From NCBI GenBank assembly GCA_947632435.1, contig CANRPC010000015.1:1-36675 (forward strand): a stretch of DNA of 36,675 bases. The letters run 5' to 3'. The stretch's first letter is position 1; every line of letters starts with the position of its first letter. Of the stretch, positions 13,932-32,227 are shown piece by piece. Under the pieces are notes generated by a model. It was not told where the DNA came from. It searched no databases and was given only the letters and a program-made list of their open reading frames with translations. Origin of the DNA: an uncultured Bacilli bacterium (GTDB lineage: Bacteria > Bacillota_I > Bacilli_A > RFN20 > CAG-449). A program made the translations under genes and the position numbers.

Positions 13932-13958
13932 ATACTATATATCTGTGAGGTGAAAGAA

Positions 13959-15173
13959 ATGAAAATATTACAAGGAAAATTTAATAAAGCAAATATTTAT
14001 GCTTCAATTATTGATGAAGAAACAGAAAAACAAATAAAAACTTTGCTTGATCAAGAATTTATCAAAGATTTACATGTTGCTATTATGCCTGATTGTCATG
14101 CGGGAAAAGGTTGTGTAATTGGCACTACAATGACAATTAAAGATAAGATAGTTCCAAATTTGGTAGGTGTCGATATTGGATGTGGAATGCTATGTGTATG
14201 CTTAGGTAAAGAAGAAATTGATCTTAAAAACTTAGATAATTTTATACATGAAAATATTCCTGTAGGAATGAAAGTAAATCAAGTTAAAACTAACTTTAAT
14301 GTACCTTTAACAAAATTAAAATGTTATAACGAATTAAAAAATAGCTCATATTTAGATAAATCTATCGGTTCTTTAGGTGGAGGTAATCATTTTATTGAAA
14401 TTGATGTTTCTAAAAATGGAACTTATTATTTAATTATTCATTCAGGATCTCGTAACTTAGGTAAACAGGTCGCAGAAATATATCAAAATAAAGCAATTAA
14501 ATATCATGAAAATAAAATTTTTAATAAAACTAAAAGAAATAAAATTATCCGTGAATTAAAAGAACAAAATCGTCAAAAAGAAATTCAACAAGTTCTAAAA
14601 GATTTTAAAAATGCAAAAATTAATCTTCCTATACCAGAAGAATTATGTTACCTCGAAGGTGAAGAATTTGAAAACTATATGTCTGATATAAAAATTTGCC
14701 AAGAATTTGCAATGGAAAATCGCAAAGAAATAGCCAAAAGAATTATCAATTATTTAAATAAAAATTTAAATGATTTAGATTCATTTGAAACTATTCATAA
14801 TTATATAAATATGAAAGATAAAATTTTAAGAAAAGGCGCTATTTCTGCATATGAAAATGAAGTTGTTTTAATTCCTATTAATATGAAAGAAGGATGTATT
14901 ATTGCCAAAGGTAAATCTAATCAAGAGTACAATTATTCTGCACCTCATGGAGCGGGAAGAATCATGTCTAGAAGTCAAGCTTTAAAAGAAATTAATATAA
15001 ATGATTTTGTTGATTCTATGAAAGGAATTTATTCTTCAACAATAAGTAAAAAAACTCTTGATGAATCACCTTTTGCTTACAAACCGCTAGAATCTATTAT
15101 AAATAATATTAAAGATACTGTGGACATTATTGAAATTATTAAGCCAATTTATAATTTTAAATCTGAAGAATAA
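13959..15173 (+). CDS. rtcB: RtcB-family RNA ligase
   Basis: ATG at 13959 is preferred: GAGGTG ends 7 bases upstream, and the earlier in-frame GTG at 13950 overlaps that site. 404 residues, the short bacterial RtcB form. RtcB joins 2',3'-cyclic phosphate (or 3'-phosphate) ends to 5'-OH RNA ends using GTP and Mn2+. Catalytic features are intact: MPDCHAGKG, VGVDIGCGM with metal ligands D72 and C75, GGGNHFIE, HSGSRNLG, and SAPHGAGRIMSR with the guanylylated His330. No archease or RtcA gene is nearby. It is divergent from the WYL regulator and followed by two same-strand genes (gaps of 91 and 61 bp), probably an operon. Confidence 0.93.
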   Translation: MKILQGKFNKANIYASIIDEETEKQIKTLLDQEFIKDLHVAIMPDCHAGKGCVIGTTMTIKDKIVPNLVGVDIGCGMLCVCLGKEEIDLKNLDNFIHENIPVGMKVNQVKTNFNVPLTKLKCYNELKNSSYLDKSIGSLGGGNHFIEIDVSKNGTYYLIIHSGSRNLGKQVAEIYQNKAIKYHENKIFNKTKRNKIIRELKEQNRQKEIQQVLKDFKNAKINLPIPEELCYLEGEEFENYMSDIKICQEFAMENRKEIAKRIINYLNKNLNDLDSFETIHNYINMKDKILRKGAISAYENEVVLIPINMKEGCIIAKGKSNQEYNYSAPHGAGRIMSRSQALKEININDFVDSMKGIYSSTISKKTLDESPFAYKPLESIINNIKDTVDIIEIIKPIYNFKSEE

Positions 15174-16699: not shown

Positions 16700-19600
16700 A
16701 TGGAATGTAAGCAAAAAAAATCAAAAAATAGTTTAATAAGAAATACAATTTTAAGATCCATATATGAAGGTTGTTGGTTAGAAATAACTTATCAAAATGC
16801 AAATGACATAGTAAAAACATTTTGGATATCTATAAAAATGATTTATTTTGATAGCAAAACATTACAATGTTATTCTTTAAGTTTAGATGAAGATAAAAAT
16901 AAAATAAAAACAATATCAATTTATTTAGATAGAATTTTAAGCGCCAAATGCCTTCCTAATACATATATCATGAATTCAGAAGAGTTAGTAAAATATTTAG
17001 ATGAGCATGCCGAATGTACAAAAGAATTATTTCCATCATTTGATTATGAAAATGTTTTATCATATTTAAGTGCTTGTGTAAATGATGATGATTCACCTGT
17101 TAAAATGGAATCCGCGGCAATTGAAGGTATCGATTTAAATGTTTTAGAAGATAACGATTATATTCCTCTTAGTAATAAGCAAATAAAAGAATTAAAGAAA
17201 AACTTTATTTTTAAAAATAATGGAGAACTTGTAAATATTGAACTTGCTGTGAATTTAATTTCTTTTGTCTATACTAATGGAAAACAACTTATTTTAGCTT
17301 ATAAACCAGTAAAATGGGATATTAAAAATCAAAAATTAAAAATTATTAATTCTATTTTATTTTGCAATAAATTTAAAGATGAAGAAGGTATAGAGCATAA
17401 TCTTTTAGAAAAATACATCTATGAAGATGAAAAATATTTATTAGAAGAATATACAAAAAATTACCATATTATTAAAGAATTAATAATGAGTAGAATAAAA
17501 GATCAAAATATTAATTTTAATGATACAAGCAAGTTAATTTTAATAAAAAGGGTTAAAAATATAGACATTGAAACTCAATTTGATGGTATACGTACAATGT
17601 ATGAAGCAAATACAACTACTATTCCAATTAAAGCTTTTTTTGGAGAGGTTAATATCAATAGAAATCGAAAATATTACCCATTTTGTTTTACCAATAATAA
17701 TTTAAATCCATCACAATTAGTTTCTATTTTTTCAGGACTAAAAGACGATTTAAGTTTTATACAAGGTCCACCTGGAACTGGTAAAACACATACTGTCTTA
17801 AATTTAGTGACTACAGCTTTTTTTAATGGTTTAACTTGTTTAGTAACAACAAATAATAATCAACCAATGAAAGATCTTAAATCTAAATTTGAAAATATTG
17901 GGAATTATAAAAACGAACCAATAGAACTCCCTCTTTTAAGATTGTCAGCGAAAGATAAAATGACCGAAACAATTAAAAATATGAATCATCTATATTTAAA
18001 ATATAAAGATGCAAATGTTAACGATAGGATTTTAGAGCAAAATTCAAAATATCAAAAAGAAAATCTTAATCAAATAGTTAAAAAACTTAATGAATTTGAT
18101 GAATTTAAAACACAAAAAATTAGAAGAGAGAATTTTCAAAAATTTGTAGAGGATAATGAATATAAAAATCTTACTTTAGATATTAAATTTCAAACAAAAA
18201 ATAACATTGAAGATTTTGATTTCTCAAGCTTAAACGAATCAATTCAATTAAATGAAGTAGTCAACAAATCATTTTTATATTTTAATTCCGCAAAATATAT
18301 TCAAAAATTAGATAAACCTAAATACCAAAAATTAAAAGACATAATATCAATTGATATTAATGATGAAGATGCATTAAAAAATTCCGTTGAAAAATTTCTA
18401 GCATTTTTAAAAGAAGAAAATGGCATGGAAATGCTTTTAGATGTTTTTCCAATTGTAATATCCACAAATTTATCATCTGCTAAATTGGGATCTCCAAAAC
18501 CTTATTTTGATATATGTATTATTGATGAAGCAGGTCAATGCAATGTTGCAACATCTTTAATTTCAATTATCCGTGCTAAAAAGTTAATTCTTGTAGGGGA
18601 TATTCAACAATTACAACCAGTCATAACTTTAGAAAATTCTAATAATGAATATTATAAAAATTTATATGATGTTGATGATGTTTTTGATTATAAAAATAAT
18701 TCAATTTATTCTACCATGATTTCTAATGCTCCTAGATATAAAGAAACATTATTAAATGAACATTATAGATGTGCTTATGATATTATAAATTTTTGTAATA
18801 AAAAATATTATAAAAAAATGTTAGATATTAAAAATGAAAAAGATAAACAAAATCATTTATTTGTTATTGATGTTTCTTTTGATAATTATGATTTAGGAAA
18901 AAATGTTTCAAGCCAAGAAATATTAAAAATATTAAATCTTTTAGAAAAATTTAAAAATCAAAATAAAAGCATTGGAATTATTACACCTTATGTTGCTCAA
19001 AAAAGATACTTAATGGATAAAATTAAACAAGAGAATTTTAAAAATGTTGAAGTATCAATTGGAACAATACACACATTTCAAGGAAATGAAAAAGATATTA
19101 TTATATTTAGTACAACAATTAATAAAAATACAAAAATTGGAACATATAGATGGCTTAAGAATAATAAACAACTAATCAATGTCGCTGTATCAAGAGCAAA
19201 AGAAGAATTTTATTTATTAACTAATATTAAAAAATTAGAAGAACTCCATTATAAAACTACATATAACGATGAAAAAGAAAAAGATGATATTTATGATTTA
19301 TATAAATACATTGTTGAGAAAGGTGAATATGAAGTTATTGCAAATTCTATTTCATCTCAAGCATTAGATGAAAATAATTTTATAACCTTCTTAGACAAAG
19401 AAAAATTAATCTCCTATAAACTTGCTTTATCAACAATTTTATGCGAAGGATCTAAATTTAAAGAAAAAGTAAATGTTAATACATTAATTAAAGACTATGT
19501 AGGAACAGAATATTTTGATTTTGTTATTTATAATAAAAAAAATATAGAATGCGTATTTCAATTAATTAAAGCAACTAAAAAATATGAACACAATCAAAAA

Positions 19601-19705
19601 ATAGAAGATTTTTGTCAAAAACACAATATAAAATATATACCTATTAAACCATCAGAAACACGTTCTTACTTTGAAATTAAAGAATCACTAAAAGAATTAA
19701 TTTAA
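16700..19705 (+). CDS. UPF1/DNA2-like SF1 helicase with N-terminal WYL-like domain
   Basis: 1001 residues; AGGA precedes the ATG. The helicase core is complete: motif I GPPGTGKT (356-363), motif II DEAGQ (609-613), motif III GDIQQLQP (from 633), NEHYRC, motif V GTIHTFQGNEKD (from 788) and motif VI VAVSRAK (828-834). It belongs to the AAA_11/AAA_12 UPF1-like class, which unwinds RNA or DNA 5' to 3'. Residues about 14-86 look like a WYL domain: 'WLEITYQNANDIVKTFWI', then IYFDSKTLQCYSL and IYLDRILSAKCL. A second strand-rich segment lies at about 180-225. The C-terminal ~110 residues contain 'VIYNKKNIECVFQLIKA', resembling the core of a degraded or divergent endonuclease-like fold. Third gene of the rtcB cluster. 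The WYL call is by pattern only. Confidence 0.85.
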   Translation: MECKQKKSKNSLIRNTILRSIYEGCWLEITYQNANDIVKTFWISIKMIYFDSKTLQCYSLSLDEDKNKIKTISIYLDRILSAKCLPNTYIMNSEELVKYLDEHAECTKELFPSFDYENVLSYLSACVNDDDSPVKMESAAIEGIDLNVLEDNDYIPLSNKQIKELKKNFIFKNNGELVNIELAVNLISFVYTNGKQLILAYKPVKWDIKNQKLKIINSILFCNKFKDEEGIEHNLLEKYIYEDEKYLLEEYTKNYHIIKELIMSRIKDQNINFNDTSKLILIKRVKNIDIETQFDGIRTMYEANTTTIPIKAFFGEVNINRNRKYYPFCFTNNNLNPSQLVSIFSGLKDDLSFIQGPPGTGKTHTVLNLVTTAFFNGLTCLVTTNNNQPMKDLKSKFENIGNYKNEPIELPLLRLSAKDKMTETIKNMNHLYLKYKDANVNDRILEQNSKYQKENLNQIVKKLNEFDEFKTQKIRRENFQKFVEDNEYKNLTLDIKFQTKNNIEDFDFSSLNESIQLNEVVNKSFLYFNSAKYIQKLDKPKYQKLKDIISIDINDEDALKNSVEKFLAFLKEENGMEMLLDVFPIVISTNLSSAKLGSPKPYFDICIIDEAGQCNVATSLISIIRAKKLILVGDIQQLQPVITLENSNNEYYKNLYDVDDVFDYKNNSIYSTMISNAPRYKETLLNEHYRCAYDIINFCNKKYYKKMLDIKNEKDKQNHLFVIDVSFDNYDLGKNVSSQEILKILNLLEKFKNQNKSIGIITPYVAQKRYLMDKIKQENFKNVEVSIGTIHTFQGNEKDIIIFSTTINKNTKIGTYRWLKNNKQLINVAVSRAKEEFYLLTNIKKLEELHYKTTYNDEKEKDDIYDLYKYIVEKGEYEVIANSISSQALDENNFITFLDKEKLISYKLALSTILCEGSKFKEKVNVNTLIKDYVGTEYFDFVIYNKKNIECVFQLIKATKKYEHNQKIEDFCQKHNIKYIPIKPSETRSYFEIKESLKELI

Positions 19706-19723: not shown

Positions 19724-19766
19724 AACTGTCACAAATTTGAAATTATTTTTAATTTGTGACAGTTAT
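19724..19766. repeat. Palindromic 40-bp repeat, copy 1 (also a terminator)
   Basis: Perfect 14-bp inverted repeat (arm AACTGTCACAAATT at 19724-19737, complement at 19751-19764) around a 13-nt AT loop. The 40-bp stretch 19727-19766 matches 21028-21067 at 39 of 40 positions in the same orientation. This copy overlaps the stop codon of the AAA_14 gene and lies 19 bp after the helicase gene, so it may terminate transcription of both convergent genes. Confidence 0.85.
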
Positions 19767-20986
19767 GATAAATTAATATCTACTTTATTTAAAAGCCATT
19801 TTTCTATATTTATATGAGTTATTCCATCTTTTGACATATCGTATTCGTCTAAACTAAATACATACTTTGGTGAAGGATCACGCACTGAATCAAATGCTTT
19901 AAATTCTCTTTCAATAATATCATCATCCATTAACAAATATGCGACTTGAATAAAACATTTTTTACCATCTTTTATAGCAACAAAATCAATTTCACCTTTA
20001 TAAGTTTTGCCTATTTTAACATCATATCCACGATATATTAATTCGTTATATATTATATTTTCTAAAGCATGACCTATAAATATTTTATTAGAATCATTAC
20101 AAGCAAGTAAAAAACCATTATCAACAACAAATTGTTTTTCTATTTGTTTTAAAGTTCTTTTTGTAGCAATATCAAATCTTTTCACTCTAGATATTAAACA
20201 AGCTTGTTCTAATTTTTCTAAATATCTATAAACTATTTTTCTATATATATTATCTTGATTATTTAAATTATAATAATCCACTATATTTTGAACGGAAAAT
20301 TCCTTGGAAATATTATTGATAATGTATTTAGCTATTAAAATAAATGTTTCTTTATCAATTTTAGATTTTTTATCACAAATATCTTTATCAATAATTCCAT
20401 AATATATTGACTTCAAATATTCCTTTATATCTTCTTCTAAGACATAATCCATTCGTTGAGGCATTCCTCCAAATCTTATATAATTTTGAAGTGGATTATT
20501 AGGAAGTTCTAATTTATTTACCTCATAAAATTTAATAAATTCACTATAAGTAAATGGCATTATTTTAAATTCTTTACATCTACCAACAAGTAAACTTGCA
20601 AGTCTACCTGATAAAAGTTTTGAATTGCTACCAGTCACAAAAATAGAGACATTTTGAGTCGCTTTTAAAGATGCTAATACTTTTTCAAATTGATTAACAT
20701 GTTGAATTTCATCTAAAAAAATATAGTATTTTTTATCATCTTTAATTTGCTTTAAAATATAATTATTTAGTTTATTGTAATTATTAATTTTTGAAAACTT
20801 AACATCTTCAAAATTAATAAAAATAATATGATCTTTATTTATCTTTCCTTCAATTTCTAATTCTTCTTTGATTTGATTTAATAAAATACTTTTACCGCAT
20901 CTTCTTATACCAGTTAAAACTTTAATTAAGTTTGATTCATAAAATCTACTTATGTGTTTTAAATATTGATCTCGTTTAATTAACAT
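19763..20986 (-). CDS. AAA_14/DUF4143 ATPase, repeat-flanked
   Basis: 407 residues. N-terminal AAA_14 ATPase with Walker A GIRRCGKS (26-33), Walker B YIFLDEIQHV, a sensor TGSNSKLLSG, and the 'GGMPQRMDYV' segment typical of this class. A winged helix follows and a C-terminal DUF4143 nuclease-like fold with GEIDFVAI and CFIQVAY, where the expected E-x-K is Gln-Val-Ala, so the nuclease-like site is probably inactive. The family has no settled function; it is abundant in accessory DNA of anaerobes. The gene is bracketed by two copies of a 40-bp palindromic repeat. The minus-strand upstream copy overlaps the promoter region. GGTGA precedes the ATG. Confidence 0.85.
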   Translation of the reverse strand: MLIKRDQYLKHISRFYESNLIKVLTGIRRCGKSILLNQIKEELEIEGKINKDHIIFINFEDVKFSKINNYNKLNNYILKQIKDDKKYYIFLDEIQHVNQFEKVLASLKATQNVSIFVTGSNSKLLSGRLASLLVGRCKEFKIMPFTYSEFIKFYEVNKLELPNNPLQNYIRFGGMPQRMDYVLEEDIKEYLKSIYYGIIDKDICDKKSKIDKETFILIAKYIINNISKEFSVQNIVDYYNLNNQDNIYRKIVYRYLEKLEQACLISRVKRFDIATKRTLKQIEKQFVVDNGFLLACNDSNKIFIGHALENIIYNELIYRGYDVKIGKTYKGEIDFVAIKDGKKCFIQVAYLLMDDDIIEREFKAFDSVRDPSPKYVFSLDEYDMSKDGITHINIEKWLLNKVDINLS

Positions 20987-21517: not shown

Positions 21518-22861
21518 TTAGTACTCTTGTATTAAAAAAGTAAGATAGTGAGGAATGTATAGAACATTACCGATTAAAGCAATATTACCTTCTCTAATCT
21601 TAATTGCCCTATCAACGTGATAATGGTCATAATTTTCAAGAATAGTAGTAAGTGCTTTAGCTTTACTGTTATTTGCTTTTACTTCAATCAAAGTACATTT
21701 ACCTTTAAAACGTGTAACAAAATCAATTTCAAGGCCACTATCTTTATGATAATAATAAAGTTTTCTATTCATTTTAGAAAAGGCATCGGCAATGATATTT
21801 TCATATATTGCACCTTTATAAATCGATAGATTACCATTTAAGATATCTGCATATGTTCCTTCTTCAAGCATTGCAACAAATAAACCACTATCTTGCATAT
21901 AAACTTTAAAAACATCATCTTTTTTATTACCTTCTAAAGGTAATTCAGTAATTGATAAAGCATAGCAACGACTGATAATGCCTGCATCTTCAAGCCATTC
22001 TAAAGCTCGTTTAAAATCATCATTTTTTCCATTCCCTTTTATTTTTGAAAATTGAAATTTTTTATTTTCTTTTGCTAATTGACTTGGGATAGAATTAAAC
22101 ACAGCAAGAATAGTTGCAAGTTCCTTCTTATCTACATACAAAGAGTTATCCTGTTTTAAATGTCTACCAAAATCATCTTGATAAGATTCTAAAATATTAC
22201 GTTGCAATTTTAAAACTTTATTTAAGTCACCATTTTCAATAAATGCCGCGACTACTTCTGGCATACCACCAACACAAATATATTTACGAAATAAATCTGA
22301 GATTCTTAAATGTATCGCTGGTAAAATTTCTTTGCATTCTATAAAACAATTTTTTAATTCATCAATTGTTTTTGATGAAATGCCATTAGCCCACATGAAT
22401 TCTTCAAAATCCAAAGGTTTCATATAAATTACATCTTCATATCCAACAGGAATTGCATTATCACTTCTTTGACTATAACCTTTTATGCCAAGTAAGGAAC
22501 CAGTGCAAATAATATCATATCTACCATCTTCATAAAAATATTTTAAGGAGGATCTTGCATTAGGGCAATCTTGTACTTCATCAAAAATAAGAAGCGTTTT
22601 GTACGGAATCGCATTAACATTTAAAATATTGGCAGTTATTTGACTAATTAAATCATTAATAATAAAAGAATGATCAAAAATAGCTCGTAATTCATGATTT
22701 TTACGAAAATCAAGGTAAATTACATTTTCATAGTTCTCTTTAGCAAATTGTTTAACAATATAAGTTTTACCAACTTGCCTTAAACCTTTAATTACTAAAG
22801 GTTTTTTATTTTTACTCTGTTTCCATTTTAAAAGTTCACTATATATTTTCCTTTTTAACAT
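21518..22861 (-). CDS. AAA_14/DUF4143 ATPase with intact nuclease-like motif
   Basis: 447 residues. Walker A GLRQVGKT (about 25-32), Walker B LLIFDEVQDC, sensor TGSLLG, and the 'PLDFEEFMWANG' and 'VGGMPEVV' motifs of the DUF4143 class. The C-terminal PD-(D/E)xK-like fold is complete here: GLEIDFVTR followed by LIEVKANN (Asp ... E-x-K), unlike the neighbouring paralogue. AAAGGAG precedes the ATG, with a TATAAT (minus strand) about 30 bp upstream. Two operator-like palindromes lie further upstream. Similarity to the other ATPase is limited to fold-level motifs, so this is not a recent duplication. Confidence 0.88.
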   Translation of the reverse strand: MLKRKIYSELLKWKQSKNKKPLVIKGLRQVGKTYIVKQFAKENYENVIYLDFRKNHELRAIFDHSFIINDLISQITANILNVNAIPYKTLLIFDEVQDCPNARSSLKYFYEDGRYDIICTGSLLGIKGYSQRSDNAIPVGYEDVIYMKPLDFEEFMWANGISSKTIDELKNCFIECKEILPAIHLRISDLFRKYICVGGMPEVVAAFIENGDLNKVLKLQRNILESYQDDFGRHLKQDNSLYVDKKELATILAVFNSIPSQLAKENKKFQFSKIKGNGKNDDFKRALEWLEDAGIISRCYALSITELPLEGNKKDDVFKVYMQDSGLFVAMLEEGTYADILNGNLSIYKGAIYENIIADAFSKMNRKLYYYHKDSGLEIDFVTRFKGKCTLIEVKANNSKAKALTTILENYDHYHVDRAIKIREGNIALIGNVLYIPHYLTFLIQEY

Positions 22862-27461: not shown

Positions 27462-30400
27462 TTATTTATCATCTCTAACAAGCATTGGCTCTTTAACTTT
27501 TATTTCTTCAGGAATGTAAATGGTTAAAATATTTTCATGTAAAGTTAATTTATTTTCATGCACCATTTTAATAATAATATTACGCATATCTTCATAAAGT
27601 TTAGCGTTCATCGTTTTATAACCTAATGAAATAAGCATCAATTTAATCGTGGTATCCATTTCAATGCTTTCACAAGTTTTAATAATAGTTAAAATGCCTT
27701 CTTCAATTTCATCTTTAGCAACTGAAGAAATACTTCTTACGTAATTTTTATTTTTCGCAGATTTAAATACAACTGGTTGATTCTTTAAATAAATAAATTT
27801 ATCTTTAATAAAAATTTTATCTTCTTTTAATAAAACATTTATAAAATTTAAGCCATCTGTTTTAAAAATACCAATCATAACACTTTCTTGAACTGGGAAA
27901 CATGTTTCCAAAACTTTTATAAATAACTTTTCCCTATTAAATTCAAAGGCTGCTTTGTTTTTATAATATACCTCATGTGGATCAACATATTCTAAGAAAA
28001 GAATATCACTAATTTTATGTTTAACAACTTTCTTTTTAGCTTTAACAATATTGGAATTTTCTTGAATTTTTGTAATTAATTTATCTTTTTCCATTTCTTC
28101 ATTTAAAAAGAAAATAAATGGGAATATACGAATATAAGGATATTCACCCTCTAATAATTTGTCTTCAAGCATTATGCTTTCTTGAGTACTTTCTAAAGAA
28201 TAATATGGTAATCTATCAATTAAAATAGCCGTAGAGGTACTTTTATTTTCAACTTTAACAACAAAATCTAAATAACCATTTTTGAATGGAACATTTCTTG
28301 TAACTTTAAAACCCGATCTTTCAAGAAAATTTTGTAAATAATTCATAAAATAAGGATTAAAATGATTTAATTGTAAAGTTTTAATATCATATGTTCGTGA
28401 ATTAAAATCAATCGTTTCATAACTATTTTTCATAGCTGCTAAAAAGGTTTCTGTATCCGATTTATCTATACCATCACCAGCAAAATCATTATTAAAATAA
28501 TCTTCATCAAAAGCAATAATTTGATCTCCACGATATAATGCTGAAAGCATTTCTGAAGTTTTTATTTCTTTATTTGCTAAACATATTACTAGATCAAAAT
28601 GATAATTTTCACTATGTAATAATTTAGAAACTGTTTTTAAAGGAGTAAATATACAACCAATTGTATGAAATATTGATTCATGTGCAAGATAAGTAATACG
28701 TGAAAGTGGGCGAATAATATCTTGCTTTTTTTCATTTTCCACAAAATCATATTCATAACGTTTTAAAATTGCTAAGTTATTACGGAGATAATCTAGTTGA
28801 TAAGTTCTTAATAACGAATCCACAATATTTTCACGATTTTGTTCGCAAATATTATAAATATCTAAACTCTTATAAAAATCTTCTTGTTTATAATTTTTCA
28901 ATTTTGCTTTATTTAATAAATAATTTGCATAATCATAGTAAAAACGTTTATAAAACATCGGTTCATAAAGAGTAAAATTATCTTCATTTAAAAAGGAATC
29001 TGCAAGTCCATGAAACGATGCATTAAGATGAAAACGAGCAACATAAAACTCTAAATAATCATTTATAGAAACAAAATCATTAGTCATAAGACTGACTTTT
29101 TCAAAGATATCATCAAAATTATAAGAAGAAAAATCAAAAATGTTTTTATCAAAATAATCTTGTAAAATAGCTAATTCACTATAAATATGATTAAAAGTTT
29201 TTTGAACTTTTGATTTTAAATTCTCCATTGATTTTTTCTTATTTTCATCTTGAAATTGATCAAGAATACTATAAGAAAATGTTAAATTTTTTGCATTTAA
29301 ATATTTAATAGAATTTTTTAAAAGATTAACTTTTTCTTCTAAATTCTTAATAGTATTTATATCATAATGATTACCTAAAAAGAATTTTTGAAAAACATCA
29401 TTAACATTATTTTTAGCTTGCTCTACTTGATTTTGTAATTCTTCATAATATTTTAATTGCCCATTAACTTTAAAAATAAGATCCAAATTAATCGTTAAAT
29501 TTGCTTTAAAATAATTTTTATACGTTTTAATTTCTTTTTTTGAAAGATTCTTTTTATTATTTATTCTATTTAATAAATCTTTATTTAAAAGAAATACCTT
29601 TTCACCATATTCATCAATAATGCTTTTTTTAGTAAGCTCTAAATCTTGATAAAGTTTTTCCACAATAAGCATCTTATTTTTTTCTTTATCAAAAACAACA
29701 TTTGCTTTAAATAAAGAACTATTTGCTAAATAATCATCAAGAACAGAAAGAATATTTAAAATACCTTTTAATTCTTTCATATTTTTAGCAACTGGGAAAT
29801 TGTAATTATTTTCTAATTTATTAAAATTTGTTTTTTGAAAACTTAAATCTTTAGTCAATTTTTCCGCGGCATCTTTTAATGGCAAATAGTCTTCTTGCAT
29901 CATATTATTTTTGTTAAAGCCATAAAAAGCATGTTTTGTATAAGGTACTTTTAGTTTTTGTAAACTCGTTACAAAGTCAGATATCTGAGTTTCCACAAAT
30001 TCAAAAGTTTCTACATCAAAAGTATCTATTTTTGTAATTTCTCTATCTAATAAAGGACAATCTATACGATAATAATGTTCAATACATTCATTTAAAGACA
30101 AATCAAATTGTTCATTTTTCTTACGAAGTTCATTAATTAATTTTTTAAAACTATTTTTTGTTTCATAATACTTATCCAAAACTTCTTGAGTTGCTACAGG
30201 ATCAAAATAATTTTTGATATAAGTTGTACTTTCATATTGATTTAAATGACTTAATAAATTTAATTTATTCGCACTTAATTCATTTAAATCAAAAGAATAA
30301 GACTTTAATGAAGCATCTAAATTTTGAAATAATTGATTTTTTTGCTCTTGATTTTCATATACAACAAGAACTTTTTTATTGTTTAATAAAAAACTTAAAA

Positions 30401-31328
30401 GAATATTATTTAAAAGATGACTTTTATTTTTAAAATTATTGGTGCGTATAAAAAATGATTCTCTATCTGCGATTCTTTTTAAAATTCGATATTCTTCATT
30501 ATCTACTGGTAATAAAGATAGAACCTTTTTTTCTAATTTGTTTTTATCTTTTTTTAAAAAATGATAAAATTCCGCATTAAAATATGAAATAGATTTAATT
30601 ATTGGCAAATTGGCAATAACGTTTTGATGTTCGATAACATCTTCTAAATAATATTGCATATTAATATCAAATTTAGAAATAAAGCACCCATTATTAACTG
30701 AAAAATGGAACATGTGTACTTTACTTGCAACATATAAAAGATATTCTTCAAGAGAAAAATTGTGATCTAAAGTATAAGAAATATCAACTTTTTTAGATTG
30801 TCTAATATAGTTTATCAACTGTTCATTTAACTGCACTTCTTGATTAAAAATTTTGATTTGATAAAAATTATCTTCTTCATTATAAAGAATATTTAAAGGC
30901 AAAAATACAAGAGGAGCAGAAGCAATTGTATGTTTATTATCAACATCATAGTAATCTAATAAACCAAAACTAATATAAAATAAACTCGTTGAATGCTTTT
31001 TTAAATATTCTTCATTTTCTTCTTTAAAACGTTTTAACCGCTTATTTTGTTCATCTTGTTTTAAATTTGTAAAAATAACTTTATTATTATAAAGTTCGCT
31101 ATTGCTTTGTTGCTCTTCTAAAACATGATAAAAATTATTATCGTCAAAATCTAAATTAGCAATTCTTATTGTTTTATTTTTTATTAAACAATCAAAAATT
31201 TCTAAATAGTTATCATTTACAATGCGAATAACATCTTTTGCATTATGGTCAAATTTAAAAGTATTACTACTATTCAATGCTTTTATTAAATCATCTATCC
31301 ATAATTCTACTTTAAACCGATTTTCCAT
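27462..31328 (-). CDS. Giant DUF4011-type helicase relative with destroyed ATPase motifs
   Basis: 1288 residues. Domain order follows DUF4011 / SF1 helicase / MTES_1575 (Vsr-like) / DUF3320 proteins. DUF4011-like region: LFYISFGLLDYYD and APLVFLPLNILYN (about 110-145). P-loop position: FFIRTNNFKNKSHLL (about 291-305) followed by NKKVLVVYENQEQ, in place of GPPGTGKSQT then kkVLfVseK. Next a long coiled-coil insert (about 385-800). GCIFTPLKTVSKLL and FDLVICLANKEI (911-922) stand where FDlVIFDEASQi belongs. The second RecA domain is largely missing. Near residue 1021, YLDFVVKV and AILIDRLPYY match a Vsr-like domain lacking its acidic residues. The C-terminus resembles DUF3320. ATP hydrolysis and cleavage look impossible, yet the frame is intact: a maintained scaffold-like protein. 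Lies 50 bp downstream of degV. Confidence 0.7.
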   Translation of the reverse strand: MENRFKVELWIDDLIKALNSSNTFKFDHNAKDVIRIVNDNYLEIFDCLIKNKTIRIANLDFDDNNFYHVLEEQQSNSELYNNKVIFTNLKQDEQNKRLKRFKEENEEYLKKHSTSLFYISFGLLDYYDVDNKHTIASAPLVFLPLNILYNEEDNFYQIKIFNQEVQLNEQLINYIRQSKKVDISYTLDHNFSLEEYLLYVASKVHMFHFSVNNGCFISKFDINMQYYLEDVIEHQNVIANLPIIKSISYFNAEFYHFLKKDKNKLEKKVLSLLPVDNEEYRILKRIADRESFFIRTNNFKNKSHLLNNILLSFLLNNKKVLVVYENQEQKNQLFQNLDASLKSYSFDLNELSANKLNLLSHLNQYESTTYIKNYFDPVATQEVLDKYYETKNSFKKLINELRKKNEQFDLSLNECIEHYYRIDCPLLDREITKIDTFDVETFEFVETQISDFVTSLQKLKVPYTKHAFYGFNKNNMMQEDYLPLKDAAEKLTKDLSFQKTNFNKLENNYNFPVAKNMKELKGILNILSVLDDYLANSSLFKANVVFDKEKNKMLIVEKLYQDLELTKKSIIDEYGEKVFLLNKDLLNRINNKKNLSKKEIKTYKNYFKANLTINLDLIFKVNGQLKYYEELQNQVEQAKNNVNDVFQKFFLGNHYDINTIKNLEEKVNLLKNSIKYLNAKNLTFSYSILDQFQDENKKKSMENLKSKVQKTFNHIYSELAILQDYFDKNIFDFSSYNFDDIFEKVSLMTNDFVSINDYLEFYVARFHLNASFHGLADSFLNEDNFTLYEPMFYKRFYYDYANYLLNKAKLKNYKQEDFYKSLDIYNICEQNRENIVDSLLRTYQLDYLRNNLAILKRYEYDFVENEKKQDIIRPLSRITYLAHESIFHTIGCIFTPLKTVSKLLHSENYHFDLVICLANKEIKTSEMLSALYRGDQIIAFDEDYFNNDFAGDGIDKSDTETFLAAMKNSYETIDFNSRTYDIKTLQLNHFNPYFMNYLQNFLERSGFKVTRNVPFKNGYLDFVVKVENKSTSTAILIDRLPYYSLESTQESIMLEDKLLEGEYPYIRIFPFIFFLNEEMEKDKLITKIQENSNIVKAKKKVVKHKISDILFLEYVDPHEVYYKNKAAFEFNREKLFIKVLETCFPVQESVMIGIFKTDGLNFINVLLKEDKIFIKDKFIYLKNQPVVFKSAKNKNYVRSISSVAKDEIEEGILTIIKTCESIEMDTTIKLMLISLGYKTMNAKLYEDMRNIIIKMVHENKLTLHENILTIYIPEEIKVKEPMLVRDDK

Positions 31329-31378
31329 ATGTAGCCCTCAAAAATATTTTAGCAAAAATAAAATTGAATACAAAGATA

Positions 31379-32227
31379 TTATTTTTTTATATAAAGAATT
31401 CCAATTGTTCCTCTTCCACAATGGGAGGAAACAACACATCCTGCATTAGTTACCATAATTTTAGAACTAGGTATTAATTTGATTAATTCTTGATAAAGAT
31501 AATCTTTATATTCTTCGGCACAAGAATGAGTAATCATAACACAATCTTCATCAATTACATCTTTATCTAATTTAAAAATATCTAAAAGAGTGTTTAATCC
31601 ATTAATTATTTTGCCTCTTGGTTTTTTATAAACAATCATTTTTCCATCCTTAACTAAAATAATTGGATGTATATGTAAATGCTTACCAAAAATATAAGAT
31701 AAAGAAGAACATCTTCCACCTTTATAAAGATAATCTAAGGTGTCAACAATGAATTGGCTACGGACATTAGGAATTATTTTTTCATTTAATAATGTTGTTA
31801 TTTCCTTTAATGATTTACCTTCTTTAATATATTTAACCGCTTTTAAAATTATTAAACCAATTCCTGAAGAAAGATTTCTCGAATCTATACAGCTAATTTT
31901 ATTATCAAATTCTTGGCTTGCTATAACAGCATTTTGATAACAAGAAGAAAAATCACTAGAAATGGTAATACAAAGTATTTCATATCCTAAAGAAGTCCAT
32001 TTCTTAAATCTATTTATAAATGTTTCAACACTAGGAGCTGAAGTTTTAGGCATTAATTTTGTTTCATCAACAATTTTATATAATTCTTTTGTAGTTAAAT
32101 TAATACCATCTTCATAACTTTTTTCGTTAAAATTAATTTCAAGAGGAATAATATCTATTTCATTTGCCTCTAAATAATCTTTTTCTAAATCTGAAGTTGA
32201 ATCAGCGATTATTTTTATTTTTGCCAT
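31379..32227 (-). CDS. DegV family protein (fatty-acid-binding)
   Basis: 282 residues, the normal length. DegV/FakB proteins bind a fatty acid and, in FakAB systems, present it for phosphorylation by FakA. N-terminal IIADSTSDLEKDYL, the conserved KTSAPSVETF, ITISSDFSSCYQNA, IDSRNLSSGIGLI, LDYLYKGGRCS and HPIILVKDGKM are all typical. GGAG lies upstream of the ATG. Transcribed toward the DUF4011-like gene. No fakA is in the window; the acyl-ACP thioesterase about 7 kb away would supply free fatty acids, but a functional link is only inference. Confidence 0.92.
   Translation of the reverse strand: MAKIKIIADSTSDLEKDYLEANEIDIIPLEINFNEKSYEDGINLTTKELYKIVDETKLMPKTSAPSVETFINRFKKWTSLGYEILCITISSDFSSCYQNAVIASQEFDNKISCIDSRNLSSGIGLIILKAVKYIKEGKSLKEITTLLNEKIIPNVRSQFIVDTLDYLYKGGRCSSLSYIFGKHLHIHPIILVKDGKMIVYKKPRGKIINGLNTLLDIFKLDKDVIDEDCVMITHSCAEEYKDYLYQELIKLIPSSKIMVTNAGCVVSSHCGRGTIGILYIKK

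Follow-up and report, generated by a model that had tools for sequence, protein, structure and literature searches.

The gene considered here raises the question of why a bacterium should keep 1288 codons open for a giant protein that resembles a helicase and lacks the motifs of one, and of what work such a protein might do. It lies on the 36,675-nt contig CANRPC010000015.1 (36.7 kb, 24% GC), the whole of which is called the window, in a genome (G000) of 1.68 Mb and 98% completeness. Comparisons were made across the GTDB family of that genome, f1 (18 genomes in four genera, g1 to g4), and a second family, f5 (23 genomes), both made up of uncultured gut Bacilli. Structural roles of dead helicases have precedents in RecC, in AddB, and in a few machines of eukaryotes; the present gene would add a DUF4011 anti-phage-type helicase-nuclease that was converted whole and then vertically kept as a core gene across two bacterial families, with active relatives at hand for comparison. 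It would illustrate clearly how an enzyme of defence can become a component of the cell without enzymatic function, and its dated series of domain losses shows which parts matter. Annotation pipelines in which proteins of this sort count as defence helicases may misjudge their activity.

Open Reading Frame and Domain Layout

The frame was recovered with exactly the same ends as in an earlier note on this DNA, which had described it as the intact frame of a giant DUF4011-class helicase relative (Table 1). Both parts of that description hold. The product of 1288 aa starts at an ATG with a GAGG ribosome-binding-like stretch immediately upstream, the chance of a frame of this length staying open at 22% GC is ~1e-54, and the GC content of the three codon positions (0.36/0.20/0.12) is similar to that of adjoining genes. 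Kinship with DUF4011 proteins follows from the Pfam match to PF13195 (65 bits versus a gathering score of 22.2), together with the alignment to active relatives. The MTES_1575 profile (PF18741) matches residues 994-1088 of the window protein with 26.1 bits, below its cut-off of 38.2, and exceeds that cut-off in two orthologues (42.2 and 38.7 bits); for AAA_12, no Pfam match was obtained in the window protein. An H(P/A)FYGF motif at residues 466-471 of the helical arm is common to dead forms and active relatives. The C-terminal region occupies the position held in active relatives by the DUF3320-type winged-helix region (PMC3710099), and is putatively assigned to it.

Table 1. Features of the dead helicase gene, with positions in the window.
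Feature	Residues	Position	Strand	Basis
Dead DUF4011 / SF1B helicase / Vsr-like gene, whole, stop codon included	1-1288	27462..31328	-	ORF, Pfam, alignment, dN/dS
N-terminal DUF4011 region (Pfam match 23-173)	1-240	30609..31328	-	Pfam E 1e-17, model
K-x3-YFN(S/A)EF-x-F motif, candidate docking motif	245-258	30555..30596	-	alignment, model
RecA1 (1A) shell, first half; predicted strands 292-296, 320-324, 345-347	263-376	30201..30542	-	alignment, model
Former P-loop (TNNFKNKSHLLNN)	296-308	30405..30443	-	alignment
Long helical arm splitting RecA1	377-881	28686..30200	-	alignment, model
RecA1 shell, second half; Walker B strand at 911-921	882-960	28449..28685	-	alignment, model
Short linker, where ~220 aa (RecA2 / AAA_12) are missing relative to active relatives	961-991	28356..28448	-	alignment
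Vsr-like (MTES_1575) nuclease-like domain	992-1091	28056..28355	-	Pfam, alignment, model
C-terminal region	1092-1288	27465..28055	-	alignment to active relatives; family knowledge, PMC3710099

Loss of Catalytic Motifs

According to the earlier note, the P-loop had become TNNFKNKSHL and the DEAS motif CLANKE, and the alignment bears out both readings. The first of these segments faces GPPGTGKSQT in active relatives from the same taxonomic order, and the second belongs to the strand FDLVICLANKE, in which the Walker B sequence VIFDEASQ has given way to VICLANKE, without the DE pair. Both losses extend to all 17 f1 orthologues, from which GxxGxGK(S/T) as well as DExx are absent. The letters NKS remaining at the former P-loop of the window protein are there by chance, relatives reading NRA, NQS, NKN, NEL, SQS, or AKI; neither the Gly nor the Lys/Ser is conserved among orthologues, which share an invariant H304 and N308 instead. 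Aligned to active relatives, the window protein also shows NEE in place of the SSQ of the Q motif and no counterpart of motif III, GDSKQ(L/M)PP. The second RecA domain is largely gone, as had been said of it: the AAA_12/RecA2 segment of ~220 aa that carries motifs V/VI (QGDExD, NVAxxRA) in active relatives is deleted in all 17 f1 orthologues.

Two broader claims, namely that the Vsr-like domain lacks its acidic residues and that every catalytic motif is lost, stand in part. The Glu of the (E)CDG motif and the DR(D/E)R motif are indeed missing, and so are the helicase motifs. On the contrary, some acidic positions persist in the Vsr-like domain, where D1021 and E1046 are invariant and D1038 is nearly so. 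Judging from its motifs, the protein is very unlikely to hydrolyse ATP, translocate, or cut DNA.

Predicted Structure and the YFNSEF Loop

The structure prediction that the earlier note had proposed as a check gave a confident AlphaFold2 model for residues 1-1100 (14 sequences in the alignment), with a mean pLDDT of 86.1 and a pTM of 0.66. Six strands of a RecA-like sheet are modelled (292-296, 320-324, 345-347, 892-896, 911-918, and 934-941), interrupted by the helical arm, which agrees with the RecA1 fold predicted from the sequence alignment and from the order of elements. The nuclease-like region is modelled as helix-strand-strand-strand-helix-strand, the order being that of Vsr-like domains. 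Sequence searches of solved structures returned no match for the dead form, while the same search with an active form matches SMUBP2, SEN1, and NAM7/UPF1.

Residues 247-258 make up the sole long low-confidence stretch inside a domain of the model. YFNSEF (249-254), within K-x3-YFN(S/A)EF, is among the most conserved segments and is absent from active relatives; the YFN(S/A)EF pattern was also picked independently as the most conserved stretch, and it is new in the dead lineage. Since the segment is conserved yet unfolded in the model, the loop is a candidate docking site for partners.

Conservation and Selection in Family f1

An orthologue is present in 17 of the 18 f1 genomes, at 28-41% identity to the window protein and in every case without helicase motifs. 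All 17 frames are open, and a search for frameshifts in related genomes, another of the checks proposed earlier, thus found no broken orthologue in f1 (that of G017 is interrupted by a contig end and resumes on a second contig). The eighteenth genome, a 200-contig draft (G015), holds an active relative only. Grouping in the f1 gene tree follows the genera (100% support), so inheritance is vertical. No other DUF4011 protein, active paralogues included, occurs in the window's genome, which settles the corresponding check and rules out an active paralogue as partner of the dead helicase; at least eight other f1 genomes likewise hold the dead copy only.

The relaxed selection presumed for this frame is contradicted by substitution rates across related genomes, which reveal strong purifying selection. 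Over the whole gene, one close pair has a dN/dS of 0.039 and three others lie at 0.046-0.056 (0.064-0.081 by YN00), and the dead domains, each taken alone, give 0.02-0.12. Adjoining genes range from 0.026 to 0.154 for the same genome pairs, so the dead helicase is constrained as strongly as its housekeeping neighbours. Between genera it diverges faster, with 41% identity versus 58-66% for DegV and a calcium ATPase. Being a helicase homologue that has lost the motifs and is held by purifying selection, the protein is a pseudo-helicase.

Dead Relatives in Family f5 and Genomic Neighbourhood

Starting from a 1187-aa DUF4011 match in an f5 genome (G038), dead relatives were traced to 21 of the 23 genomes of that family. 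These are more diverged than the f1 forms, their lengths run from 1220 aa down to ~950 aa, and a P-loop was found in none of them. In genus g24 the nuclease-like and C-terminal parts are mostly lost, as is much of DUF4011; loss of the first two parts in many f5 genomes indicates that not every domain is needed. In one f5 genome of 65% completeness two frames, of 254 and 794 aa, stand in place of a single one (L132, G068:C124:1018-4033), owing to a frameshift or an assembly error. At most f5 loci read (L166:6804-7049 and 10 others), a hydrophobic protein of ~81 aa with no Pfam match is encoded just downstream on the opposite strand.

Neighbours of the dead helicase are housekeeping genes, among them prfA, prmC, tsaC, rpiB, rpmE, murA, and degV. 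Several recur in both families: tsaC and rpiB in g1 of f1 and g8 of f5, and prfA in g1 of f1 and two f5 genomes (G041, G052), to which is added a divergent glycosyltransferase gene in g2-g4 of f1 and one f5 genome (G059). As the f1 and f5 junctions are not identical, these shared neighbours lend orthology moderate, not strong, support; no neighbour fixed in both families was found. Across 27462-32227 of the window, the dead helicase and degV point in the same direction, an arrangement seen here only, the two genes being convergent in other genomes where they adjoin, which suggests that a local inversion took place in the lineage of the window. An operon with degV was ruled out on the same grounds.

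Origin and Active Relatives

In a tree of 51 proteins, evaluated by SH-aLRT support and the AU test, a single branch with SH-aLRT support of 100% separates the dead forms of f1 and f5, taken together, from the active helicases, with the caveat that long-branch attraction between the dead forms may play a part. Derivation of the f1 dead forms from active copies of f1 itself was rejected (AU p 0.007), and no shared neighbours were found between the dead-helicase locus and the loci of active copies. All 17 active relatives sampled from other orders of the class keep the P-loop, DEAS, and the motif VI region. Neither the remaining families of the order nor a set of 395 genomes from the class yielded a similar dead form.

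Two other genomes of the window's genus carry full-length PDC-S37/ProA-like copies of 1503 and 1511 aa (L099:910-5421, plus strand; L100:778-5313, minus strand). Their frames are open, and they read GAPGTGKVQ and AAPGTGKAQ against GPPGTGKSQ, and NESS/NEAS against DEAS. From these replacements they apparently represent a second, separate, and earlier stage of active-site loss. A further DUF4011 relative of 1277 aa in G010 (L106:4928-8761, plus strand) contains IDEASQVP and gives no GPPGTGK match, and is possibly an altered member.

Comparison with Known Systems

The closest described families are anti-phage systems. The window protein matches NCBIfam ProA (NF058533) at 8.6e-42, with 142.8 bits versus an equivalog cut-off of 1500, and PADLOC PDC-S37 at 2.9e-52; it has no match to Hhe (NF042953 / PADLOC Hhe), which active copies also match. 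With Hhe/ProA/PDC-S37 it has in common the order of DUF4011, SF1B RecA1 split by a helical arm, Vsr-like MTES_1575, and C-terminal tail, the sequence similarity spanning residues 18-938. On the contrary, it has no P-loop, Walker B, or RecA2, its nuclease site is broken, its scores are far below the curated cut-offs, and its gene is a vertical core gene rather than a mobile defence gene.

In RecC and AddB, Chi is read by SF1 helicase domains that have been inactivated (PMC4824097), and the inactivated nuclease domain of RecC forms a hoop for ssDNA (PMC1185551). By working principle, they would be the closest analogues, as they too keep an inactivated SF1 helicase shell (in RecC a nuclease domain as well) for a non-catalytic role (PMC1185551, PMC4824097). 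They differ in retaining domain 2A and in forming a complex with RecB/AddA, whereas the window gene lacks 2A and has no such adjoining partner. The dead helicase is not AddB in disguise either, as f1 has a separate AddA/AddB-type pair, consisting of PF12705-bearing frames of ~770 and 1020 aa that lie side by side elsewhere in the genomes. According to PMC9539457, Utp25 is similarly a dead helicase, retained for its structural contribution to a larger machine, the eukaryotic small-subunit processome, and differs in being eukaryotic, in its helicase superfamily, and in serving ribosome assembly. Pseudo-helicases are, as a kind, already known. New here is the dead, lineage-wide DUF4011 anti-phage-type form, which is described neither in the literature searched nor by the family models; that literature gave no account of inactive DUF4011 forms either.

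Function of the Dead Protein

Considering that (i) the helicase motifs are lost, (ii) the frame is intact, here and throughout the f1 orthologues, (iii) no active DUF4011 paralogue is present, and (iv) the gene is under purifying selection, a non-enzymatic role, already judged likely in the earlier note, is the best reading, and the dead gene is probably kept for a job of that kind not previously described. With good though not full confidence, the protein is regarded as a domesticated pseudo-helicase, that is, an ancestral anti-phage-type helicase-nuclease that lost its sites and was kept as a non-enzymatic core scaffold or adaptor. The ancestor would have been a DUF4011-SF1B helicase-Vsr nuclease of the Hhe/ProA/PDC-S37 type, and its ATPase site, RecA2, and nuclease site would have been lost before the living members of f1 and f5 diverged. 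The remaining shell, made up of DUF4011, one RecA fold, a helical arm of ~500 aa, a nuclease-like fold, and the C-terminal tail, would have persisted as a core protein, single-copy and inherited vertically, for which no active DUF4011 copy is needed. Such a protein would act by holding something, with neither ATP hydrolysis nor DNA cutting; the likeliest form of this is a protein (or protein-nucleic acid) scaffold on which partners dock via the YFNSEF loop and the helical arm. Whether it goes as far as a new core protein family of two uncultured Bacilli families, in which a whole anti-phage helicase-nuclease became a non-enzymatic scaffold, essential or nearly so, and progressively lost domains across the lineage (from 1288 to ~950 aa), is evenly balanced.

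The earlier note had named a DNA-binding scaffold as a possibility, which, as stated, is unsupported considering the overall pI of 6.1 and the deletion of domain 2A. In its more developed form, a RecC/AddB-like subunit would hold DNA, or steer it, for an active enzyme with an unlinked gene, as part of repair or defence; RecC and AddB themselves are precedents (PMC4824097, PMC1185551), and the first RecA half is basic, with a pI of 9.3. Nevertheless, RecC and AddB bind ssDNA across 1A and 2A, and since 2A is half of the ssDNA track in these proteins and in SF1 helicases, its deletion removes the classic SF1 route of DNA binding. Other members have pI values of ~5-9 with no clear basic trend, f1 possesses its own AddA/AddB-type pair, and the window's intact SF1B helicase is not conserved as a partner, all of which makes a DNA-gripping subunit rather doubtful. 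It is likewise unlikely that the protein still serves immunity, as a sensor, regulator, or decoy that arose from an anti-phage helicase and took a fixed place in the core genome. The anti-phage nature of the closest families speaks for it, and the fast divergence between genera would fit an arms race; presence in nearly every f1 and f5 genome, vertical inheritance, housekeeping neighbours, the absence of a fixed effector gene, and low dN/dS in every domain speak against it.

Some enzymatic activity might be retained through a non-standard site, considering the conservation of D1021, D1038, and E1046 in the nuclease-like domain and of H304/N308 at the former P-loop. This is very improbable, as no Gly-rich loop or Lys is conserved at the former P-loop and the nuclease-like domain is wholly missing in many f5 members. 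A pseudogene caught before its frame broke would explain the lost catalytic motifs, and is practically untenable: dN/dS values of ~0.04-0.06 and long open frames refute it, the gene being present in 38 of the 41 genomes of f1 and f5.

Other Genes of the Window

A separate SF1B helicase of 1001 aa, MkoA/MkoC-like and with AAA_11/AAA_12, is encoded at 16700-19705 on the plus strand. Its motifs are intact (QGPPGTGKTHT, IIDEAGQC, QGNEKD, and NVAVSRA) and its distribution in f1 is patchy; with a similar gene in only 5 of the 18 genomes, it was ruled out as partner of the dead helicase. An RtcB-type RNA ligase gene (13950-15173, plus strand) lies beside an ATPase_2/DUF234 gene and this intact helicase, beyond which two further AAA_14/DUF4143 ATPases are encoded at 19763-20986 and 21518-22861.
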